From Gemmatimonadota bacterium (GTDB lineage: Bacteria; Gemmatimonadota; Gemmatimonadetes; Gemmatimonadales; GWC2-71-9), in the NCBI GenBank assembly GCA_016874005.1, contig VGVQ01000007.1:1-64000 (forward strand): 64,000 bases of DNA, read 5' to 3'. A program made the position numbers and the translations under genes. Positions 21,034 to 40,516 of the stretch are shown here, one piece after another (the stretch's first letter is position 1; each line of letters starts with the position of its first letter). The notes beneath the pieces are model-generated. The model worked only from the letters and a program-made list of their open reading frames with translations. It made no database searches and was not told where the DNA came from.

Positions 21034-21381
21034 ATGCCGATCATCGATTGGGCTTACCTTCGCCCCGGTTGAATCACCTGCAAGCGAACGCAAGGGTTCC
21101 TTGCGAAGAGTAAGACAACCGTCGCGACGACCGTCGACGCCAAGAAACGGACCATTCCCGGCAAGGACGCGCTCAAGGTCCTGGATGGGGTGGACCACCT
21201 CTACGCGGCCAAGGGCAAGAAGGTGGCGCACCTGGATCTCACGACCGGCAACGCCACTCGTGCCGAGATCGCAGCGCTGATCATCGGTCCGAGCGGCAAT
21301 CTCCGGGCGCCGACCGTTCGGACGGGGCGCACGGTGTTGGTGGGGTTCGACGAGGGGACCTACGCCAAGATCGTGAAGTAG
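21034..21381 (+). CDS. selenocysteine-containing ArsC/Spx-like thioredoxin-fold protein
   Basis: An ATG at 21034 with GAGGG 7 nt upstream opens MPIIDWAYLRPG, then an in-frame UGA (21070-21072). The same frame continues for 102 codons to TAG. Read as Sec, the protein has 115 residues with U13-I-T-C16 followed by KRTQGFL. This aligns with the CxxC and following helix of Spx/ArsC proteins (for example CTSCRKARAWL of Spx). The C-terminal part (GVDHLYAAKGKKVAHLDL) fits the fold. A hairpin with a G-starting loop lies about 23 nt after the UGA, as expected of a bacterial SECIS. An ArsC family with Sec-containing members is known. The role is probably redox. Without Sec reading only the 63-codon tail from 21190 would be called. 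It lies 35 nt after the CoA ligase. Confidence 0.85.
21089..21105 (+). promoter_or_regulatory. bacterial SECIS-like hairpin
   Basis: CGCAAGG (21089-21095) pairs perfectly with CCTTGCG (21099-21105) around the loop GUU. The loop begins 23 nt after the last base of the UGA at 21070-21072. Bacterial SECIS elements are short stem-loops inside the coding region, with the apical loop roughly 16-37 nt downstream of UGA and a G at the start of the loop, recognised by SelB. This matches in position and form. Confidence 0.75.
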
Positions 21382-38264: not shown

Positions 38265-39413
38265 TCAGTCCCCGAAAGAGATCCCGAGGTTCCGGGCGGT
38301 GAGAATGATGCCGCCATCGAGCGGCACCAGCTTCTGACGACCCATGACCTCCGCGATCGGGATCCGGCCCACCGTCGGCGGCGTGAACACCACCACCTTG
38401 CCGAAGTCGCCGTCCCCGATGGCCCGGACCGCGGCCGATCCGAAGCGAAGGGCCAGGAGTCGATCGAAGGTCGTTGGCGAACCGCCCCGCTGAAGGTGGC
38501 CCAGGACCAGGCTCCGGGTCTCCTTGCCGGTGCGCTCGCGAATCGCTTCGGCCACCTGAGCCGCGATCCCGCCGAGGCGCTCCACCGCGCCGGTCTTCGC
38601 GGCCTCCAACAAGGCCACCTTCCCGTTCGCCGGCTTGGCTCCCTCCGCCACGACCACGATGGAAAAATGCCGACCCGCCGCTTCGCGGGCTCGGATCTTC
38701 TCGCAGACCTTCTCGATCTCGAAGGGGATCTCCGGAATCAAGATGACGTCGGCGCTGCCGGAGAGGCCGCTGTGGAGCGCGATCCAGCCGGCATAGCGGC
38801 CCATCAGTTCGACGACCATCACTCGATCGTGGCTTTCGGCCGTGGTGTGGAGCTTGTCGAGCGCATCGGTCGCGGTCGCCACCGCCGTGTCGAAGCCGAA
38901 GGTTGACTCGGTACCAACCACGTCGTTGTCGATCGTCTTGGGAACCCCGACCGTGGGAATTCCCTTCTCCCAGAGGTGGTGGGCGATCGTCAGGCTCCCG
39001 TCGCCTCCGATCGCCACCAAGGCATCGAGCCCGTGCCGGCGGAAGGAGTCGACCAGTTCCTGGGAGCGATCGACCTCGAGCACCGAGCCATCCGACTGCC
39101 GGGTCGGCCATCGAAAAGGATTGCCGCGATTGGTGGTGCCGAGGATGGTGCCGCCGAGGTGGGTGATGCCCCGCACCTGCGCCGGGCCGAGTGGCATCAG
39201 TCCACCGCTTGGCGACCCCCGTCGGCGGTCGGGACCGTCGTACTTCTGGCCATAGGCGAAGGAGTAGCGCCCGCCCCGTTCGTAGAGACCGTCGTAGCCA
39301 CGCCGAATCCCAAAACACACCCAGCCACGCTGGTGGGCCGACAACACCACGGCTCGAATCACCGCATTGAGGCCCGGTGCATCGCCGCCGCCTGTCGAGA
39401 TACCTATCCGCAT
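38265..39413 (-). CDS. pfkA: 6-phosphofructokinase, group III type
   Basis: The 382-residue kinase starts MRIGISTGGGDAPGLNAVIR and contains IGGDGSLTIAH, GVPKTIDNDV and MGRYAGWIALH. GGDGS (Gly at E. coli position 104) indicates ATP use, whereas PKTIDND (Lys at position 124) is usual in PPi-dependent forms. This combination defines the long ATP-PFK group of mixed signature. It phosphorylates fructose 6-phosphate in glycolysis. A GGGGGG tract 6 nt upstream serves as RBS. The SelW-like gene ends 40 nt upstream on the same strand and is probably cotranscribed. Confidence 0.93.
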   Translation of the reverse strand: MRIGISTGGGDAPGLNAVIRAVVLSAHQRGWVCFGIRRGYDGLYERGGRYSFAYGQKYDGPDRRRGSPSGGLMPLGPAQVRGITHLGGTILGTTNRGNPFRWPTRQSDGSVLEVDRSQELVDSFRRHGLDALVAIGGDGSLTIAHHLWEKGIPTVGVPKTIDNDVVGTESTFGFDTAVATATDALDKLHTTAESHDRVMVVELMGRYAGWIALHSGLSGSADVILIPEIPFEIEKVCEKIRAREAAGRHFSIVVVAEGAKPANGKVALLEAAKTGAVERLGGIAAQVAEAIRERTGKETRSLVLGHLQRGGSPTTFDRLLALRFGSAAVRAIGDGDFGKVVVFTPPTVGRIPIAEVMGRQKLVPLDGGIILTARNLGISFGD

Positions 39414-39453: not shown

Positions 39454-39672
39454 TCAGGCCAAGAGCCGGACGATCTCGCCCGGCTCGGCGTGGCGCTTGA
39501 GCGCTTTCTTCGAGAAAACCAGCCTCCCGTCGGCCGTCACCTCGAAGACACCCCCACTACTGGGGACCATCTTGATATCGACGTCGGGGTACGCCTCCTT
39601 GAGTTCAGCCGCCACCCGGGCGGCTCGCGGGGCGTAGTTTCACTGAACGCAATACTGGATCGAAACCTGCAT
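39454..39672 (-). CDS. SelW/Rdx-family selenoprotein
   Basis: From ATG 39672 (GGGAG 5-6 nt upstream) the minus strand reads MQVSIQYCVQ, then UGA (39642-39640), then NYAPRAARVAAELKEAYPDV and so on to TGA at 39454. Taken as Sec, the 72-residue protein has C8-V-Q-U11 followed by the whole Rdx fold, including GGVFEVTADGRLVFSKKALKR and the EPGEIVRLL end. This is the SelW/SelT/SelH motif and length, in which CxxU is the redox site. A stem-loop about 21 nt after the UGA fits a bacterial SECIS. Ordinary gene calling sees only two fragments shorter than 65 codons, so the gene is easily missed. The redox partner is unknown. Confidence 0.88.
39607..39625 (-). promoter_or_regulatory. bacterial SECIS-like hairpin
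   Basis: On the minus strand AGCCGCC (39625-39619) pairs with GGCGGCT (39613-39607) around the loop CGGGU. The stem starts 14 nt and the loop 21 nt after the UGA at 39642-39640, with G at the second loop position. This spacing nearly equals that of the hairpin in the first selenoprotein gene. Confidence 0.75.
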
Positions 39673-39784
39673 CGCTACTCCCGGTAATTGTCTCTGGGGA
39701 CGCTCAATGCTAGTCGACCGCGCCAGCCGGGCCAAGGTGGCAGATCGCTTGTCAGGGCAGCCTAAGTCTCATATCTATAACACC

Positions 39785-40516
39785 ATGCGCCTCTGTGTAG
39801 CGGCGGCCGCTCTGCTCGCAATCGCGACACCGGCGGGAGCGCAGAGCGCCGGGACCCTCGAGTTCTCGGCCCTCGGCGTCTGGCACAACAAGACCACCAC
39901 GATGGACGCCCTTCGCGGCTTCGGGTTCGGCTCGCGAGTGGGGGTCTGGCTACCAGCCGGCTTCGAGCTGGAAGGTCAGGCCGATGTCACCCTGCCGGCC
40001 AATTCGATCGTGGTCAATCGCTTCAAGTTGTACCACCTGGCCGGCAGCCTGGTGTTCAATGTCCCGGCCGGGTCGGCGAGTCTGTACCTCCGGGGAGGCT
40101 ACGGCAAGCTTCTGCCGAGGGGCTGCACCTTCAATGGCCCGTGCAGCTCACATGGCGCCGCCACCGGTGGGGCCGGGTTTCGGGTCCCTCTTGGCGGCGG
40201 CCTCTTCCTCCGAGCCGAGGGGATGTATCGCACCCGGACCGTTTACGACTATCGCAGCTTCGGCGGCAGTGTGGGCTTCAGCCTGTTGTCCCGAAGCGCC
40301 GGGCCCACTGGACTCGGACCCGACGACGATGGCGACGGGGTGGCCAACCGGCGCGACCGGTGTCGTGACACACCCCGAGGGGCGCTGGTTGACACTCGCG
40401 GCTGCGCCACCGATAGCGACCGGGATGGCGTCGTCGACGGCGTCGATCGCTGCCCGGCAACGCCGGCCAACACCGAGGTCGACCGGTTCGGGTGCCCGGC
40501 GCGCCGCCCAGATTGA
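39785..40516 (+). CDS. outer-membrane-like beta-barrel with thrombospondin type 3 repeats
   Basis: The ATG at 39785 begins a good signal peptide (MRLCVAAAALLAIATPAGAQ) and a 243-residue protein. Residues 25-180 look like an 8-stranded porin-type barrel with alternating strands (FGSRVGVWLPAGFELEGQADVTL, GGGLFLRAEGMYRTRTVYDY). The C-terminal part has calcium-binding type 3 repeats (DDDGDGVANRRDRC, DSDRDGVVDGVDRC). An OmpA-like domain usually follows such repeats but is absent, so the protein is short. No RBS is visible; TTGTCA (39749) and TATCTA (39772) suggest a promoter placing the start near the ATG, so the transcript may be leaderless. Confidence 0.75.
   Translation: MRLCVAAAALLAIATPAGAQSAGTLEFSALGVWHNKTTTMDALRGFGFGSRVGVWLPAGFELEGQADVTLPANSIVVNRFKLYHLAGSLVFNVPAGSASLYLRGGYGKLLPRGCTFNGPCSSHGAATGGAGFRVPLGGGLFLRAEGMYRTRTVYDYRSFGGSVGFSLLSRSAGPTGLGPDDDGDGVANRRDRCRDTPRGALVDTRGCATDSDRDGVVDGVDRCPATPANTEVDRFGCPARRPD

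Follow-up and report, generated by a model that had tools for sequence, protein, structure and literature searches.

A SelW-like selenoprotein gene with an in-frame UGA upstream of pfkA in a Gemmatimonadota bacterium

On the minus strand of a 64,000-nt stretch of Gemmatimonadota DNA (the window), a short frame upstream of pfkA is interrupted by a single UGA, which raises the question of whether this codon is read as selenocysteine (Sec) or ends the protein. The original prediction described a SelW/Rdx-like protein with the motif C-V-Q-U, a UGA at codon 11 and a complete domain, and the frame, coordinates, motif and Pfam match all agree with that description (Table 1). Translated from the ATG at 39672 to the terminal TGA at 39456-39454, the frame reads MQVSIQYCVQ-U-NYAPRAARVAAELKEAYPDVDIKMVPSSGGVFEVTADGRLVFSKKALKRHAEPGEIVRLLA, the UGA being its sole interruption. 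For profile matching, Cys was put in place of the UGA residue. The curated cut-offs for the SelW-like/Rdx family were exceeded over the full domain with Pfam Rdx PF10262 (E=7.4e-22, 77.8 bits, cut-off 22.6), NCBIfam NF041051 'SelT/SelW/SelH family (seleno)protein' (106.5 bits, cut-off 88) and TIGR02174 (67 bits, cut-off 34.2). A genome-wide six-frame search identified selW as the single Rdx locus, holding exactly one TGA, and revealed no Cys paralogue. The expectation that ORF finders would miss the gene held for a plain table-11 ORF listing, from which selW is absent, but not for NCBI, which curates a (seleno)protein model that selW passes. Upstream of selW, a scan for one promoter type, sigma-70-like, found no match.

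Table 1. Coordinates of selW and of the other features discussed; positions are those of the window except for the SelD gene.
Feature	Position	Strand	Details and basis
selW-like selenoprotein gene	39454..39672	minus	72 aa, CVQU; frame reading, profile matches and orthologues with intact CxxU frame
In-frame UGA, putative Sec codon	39640..39642	minus	Codon 11; TGA in relatives, TGC in G128, which lacks the Sec machinery
Bacterial SECIS hairpin AGCCGCC-CGGGU-GGCGGCU	39607..39625	minus	7-bp stem, 5-nt loop; fold and synonymous-site covariation
GGGAG, Shine-Dalgarno-like	39678..39682	minus	Just 5' of the selW ATG at 39672; seen in the sequence
pfkA-type phosphofructokinase	38265..39413	minus	PF00365, E=1.7e-104; start 40 nt past the selW stop
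ArsC-family (seleno)protein, UITC motif	21034..21381	plus	UGA at 21070; NCBIfam NF041106, 128 bits, cut-off 85
SelD gene, one in-frame TGA near start (HGAG-U-ACK)	L022 1501-2415 = G000:C14:80596-81510	minus	Frame reading

The predicted structure is that of the family. AlphaFold2 was given nine orthologues with Cys in place of Sec, and the resulting SelW model had a pLDDT of 93.9 and the order beta-alpha-beta-beta-beta-alpha, which in this predicted model is the thioredoxin-like SelW fold. CVQU occupies residues 8-11, with a predicted strand at residues 2-8 and a helix starting at residue 14, which puts CxxU in the loop that follows the first beta strand. When the model was searched with Foldseek, the solved SelW-related structures 2oka, 2fa8 and 2obk ranked first (TM 0.91), and mouse SelW (2npb) matched with a TM of 0.78. 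Weak PDB matches to gp120 were dismissed as chance. The Cys-containing SelW-related proteins 2fa8, 2oka, 2obk, 3dex and 2p0g share the predicted fold of SelW (TM about 0.9) but have CxxC in place of CxxU, no Sec, greater length and about 26-35% identity. Mouse selenoprotein W is likewise a CxxU selenoprotein of the same fold family, although its sequence similarity to SelW is low (E=5e-4). Its SECIS, of the eukaryotic kind, is placed in the 3' UTR.

The original prediction held that the organism decodes Sec, and named a genome without Sec machinery as the finding that would count against it. A search for sel genes instead recovered the machinery in the same genome: a tRNA-Sec (68.4 bits, above the gathering score; ARAGORN anticodon tca), SelB (303 bits), SelA (517 bits) and SelD (371 bits). 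With these four components present, decoding of UGA as Sec is expected in this organism. SelD, whose own frame has an early TGA, is a probable selenoprotein itself. The other selenoprotein gene predicted in the window proved genuine as well, being a member of the ArsC family with a UxxC motif and a hairpin past its UGA. Thus at least three genes (selW, selD and the ArsC-family gene) appear to use UGA as Sec.

A stem-loop resembling a SECIS element had also been predicted after the selW UGA; folding found it, and covariation across 61 loci backs it. The hairpin starts 21 nt past the UGA and has G at loop position 2. The model for bacterial SECIS elements specifies a loop of 3-9 nt, an upper stem of 4-16 bp, a G in the first two loop positions and a distance of 16-37 nt from the UGA (PMC13188914), and the selW hairpin agrees with it in each item that can be checked. 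Single-sequence folding was mildly better than that of shuffles (z=-2.0), which is weak by itself, and the decisive evidence for the stem-loop in selW is comparative. The seven stem pairs are formed in 50, 57, 60, 60, 51, 61 and 61 of the 61 loci. Three of them link third codon positions, where the base is not fixed by protein conservation. At these three, 171 of 183 possible pairs are formed, compared to 79.5 +/- 6.6 (maximum 103) in 1000 runs of a null in which codons were resampled for the same amino acids, although the exact size of this excess is inflated because the sequences are related yet were treated as independent. Direct switches between pairs do not depend on that null: the outermost pair alternates between G-C, A-U and C-G across loci, and pair 20-32 between C-G, G-C and U-G. 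Covariation at pairs 17-35 and 20-32 exceeded that in all 2000 shuffles. At codons 7, 8 and 9 past the UGA, the third base is invariant wherever the commonest residue is present, in contrast to other selW codons. Of the 61 loci, 60 have RGUYU or RGGYU as their loop, and CGGGU occurs solely in the selW of this window; with this unusual loop, decoding efficiency could differ.

The 61 loci comprise the window and 60 loci with flanks, which were picked from TGA-bearing Rdx matches in the phylum. The U of the CxxU motif is present at 61/61 loci, a count that is partly built in because the loci were chosen among TGA-bearing matches. Not built in by the sampling is that the frame is open and conserved over the whole domain, with no further stop, at all 61. 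Close relatives with a truncated frame would have spoken against the gene; close relatives instead keep the UGA-containing frame, four genomes of the same genus among them. In a separate public collection, searched with two patterns, one of which ignored the codon at the Sec site, the best selW matches were Gemmatimonadetes/Gemmatimonadota MAGs. The next matches, from Calditrichaeota, Caldilineaceae, Desulfobacterota-type genomes, Planctomycetota and Bacillota, keep the UGA too. One Bacillota genome (L181) apparently has two tandem UGA-selW copies, with UGA at about 2027 and 2341. In G013, whose genome is 99% complete and has SelA, SelB and tRNA-Sec, the UGA-selW frame (L126, from 1501) lies directly before pfkA and lacks the central GGxFEV part, with the SECIS-like hairpin kept; this copy has probably undergone an internal deletion or is decaying.

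Rdx matches were found in 193 of 395 sampled Gemmatimonadota genomes and SelA in 282. Both were present in 175 genomes, Rdx only in 18, SelA only in 107 and neither in 95 (Fisher p=2e-17, counting genomes without phylogenetic correction). Among the matches listed, a single TGA is present at every Rdx locus but the five with the highest scores. The phylum also has a second Rdx subfamily with CxxC (YCxxCRWLLRA; L026-L030), which occurs in a few genomes and is separate from the UGA form; the five top-scoring matches, in G363, G212, G052, G195 and G071, belong to this CxxC subfamily and were rejected as replacements of selW. Fifteen of the 18 Rdx genomes without a SelA match have the UGA form. All 15 keep SelB and/or tRNA-Sec (for example tRNA-Sec in G354 and G390, SelB in G038 and G348), so they were rejected as counter-examples, and SelA was probably missed there, whether through incomplete assemblies or in the search itself. 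The remaining three, G128, G320 and G052, have Rdx without UGA, and lack SelA, tRNA-Sec and any SelB above the cut-off. In G037, of the same genus as the source, Rdx, SelA, tRNA-Sec and SelB above the cut-off are jointly missing. The genome of G128, which belongs to the same order, is complete in a single contig. Its frame reads IDIALCVG-C-NYQPRAAALAATLREAYP...; the Sec codon is TGC there, and the innermost SECIS pair is broken, G standing opposite G. By sequence comparison, G128 holds an orthologue with Cys where the Sec machinery is absent, and the same Sec/Cys pairing is seen in the PDB homologues with Cys. The UGA form of selW, as judged from gene content, tracks the Sec machinery across the phylum.

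These data bear on what the UGA means. Were it a true stop, the downstream frame would be open by chance or belong to a pseudogene, and the omission of selW from the plain ORF listing fits that reading. However, amino-acid conservation runs on beyond the UGA throughout the phylum, the Pfam match spans the whole frame, the Sec machinery is complete and the SECIS covaries; the conserved downstream frame effectively refutes a stop, to which we give next to no probability. It is very improbable that the UGA is instead read as Cys or Trp through suppression or a changed code. Cys homologues at this site are known, yet selW itself ends in TGA, so UGA still terminates in this organism; moreover, the UGA form goes with the Sec genes, and both hairpin and loop are conserved. 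The frame, family, predicted fold, SECIS conservation, machinery and Sec/Cys exchange were each computed for selW, and we hold with great confidence that 39454-39672 encodes a bacterial SelW-like selenoprotein with Sec from UGA. Insertion at residue 11 almost certainly occurs. SelB on the hairpin just past the UGA would deliver Sec-tRNA(UCA) to the ribosome, which would place Sec at this residue rather than terminating. The product would be thioredoxin-like, 72 residues long and marked by a CxxU redox motif; judging from motif and fold, it is most likely a small thiol/selenol oxidoreductase. The selW gene is probably transcribed together with pfkA.

As originally described, selW lies directly upstream of pfkA on the same strand. 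A conserved PFK start motif follows selW at 2-112 nt on the same strand at 42 of the 61 loci, often implying an overlap of stop and start, and where the genes adjoin, they are likely to be cotranscribed. On the other side of selW, a divergent plus-strand ORF (39707-40516) has DxDxDG-type repeats near its end which, by eye, recall thrombospondin type 3 or OmpA-linker repeats. One reading of the adjacency is a functional module of SelW and PfkA, with phosphofructokinase controlled or protected by the selenoprotein; this reading adds to the selenoprotein explanation rather than replacing it. The frequent adjacency is consistent with this, as is its retention in G128, where the Cys-form gene occupies the same place and its stop overlaps the pfkA start. 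However, 19 of the 61 selW loci have no pfkA neighbour. The link is absent from the eleven loci sampled in families f5, f7, f8 and f9 and from the matches from other phyla in the separate public collection; it is confined to part of the phylum. Either gene can also be found alone: for example, G015, G076 and G110, all within the source's family, and G050 have selW and no close match to this pfkA, and G044, G163, G295 and G319, again within that family, have pfkA and no selW, with no selW remnant found before pfkA in G044. A functional unit is not established, and we consider the module unlikely. It is likewise quite improbable that the Gemmatimonadota have a selenium-dependent SelW, in one operon with phosphofructokinase, by which glycolytic flux is tuned or protected in response to redox or selenium status.

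In the Sargasso Sea set, SelW-like CxxU selenoproteins formed the most abundant family (PMC1088965). The GOS set has 427 such genes, more than for any other family (PMC2398784). A 2006 survey tabulated ten bacterial SelW-like genes and raised the possibility that Sec is the original form (PMC1794560). Bacterial SelW-like selenoproteins are thus a family established in 2005-2008, one of the longest known and most abundant among the selenoproteins of bacteria, of which selW is a solid new example and no new phenomenon. With the known bacterial members (NF041051 SelTWH_Campy, TIGR02174, PF10262) it shares the position of CxxU, a whole-length profile match, a SECIS directly past the UGA and the SelW fold. 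It differs from them by its CGGGU loop, and both the adjacency to pfkA and the wide use in Gemmatimonadota are undescribed in the literature searched. In a partial search, which is weak evidence of absence, the term Gemmatimon* did not occur in PMC1794560, PMC5029168 or PMC13188914, and an equally partial search found no paper that joins SelW, bacterial selenoproteins and phosphofructokinase.

Collectively, these results describe a selenoprotein that is well supported, unusually so by comparative evidence, from a phylum for which we found no description of selenium use in the literature searched. SelA is present in 282 of the 395 sampled genomes, and most of the 193 Rdx genomes have a SelW of the Sec type. 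G128 shows Sec/Cys exchange cleanly in a natural setting, and in selW a SECIS within the coding region has left a clear signature at synonymous sites. Such genes go missing when UGA is treated as a stop.
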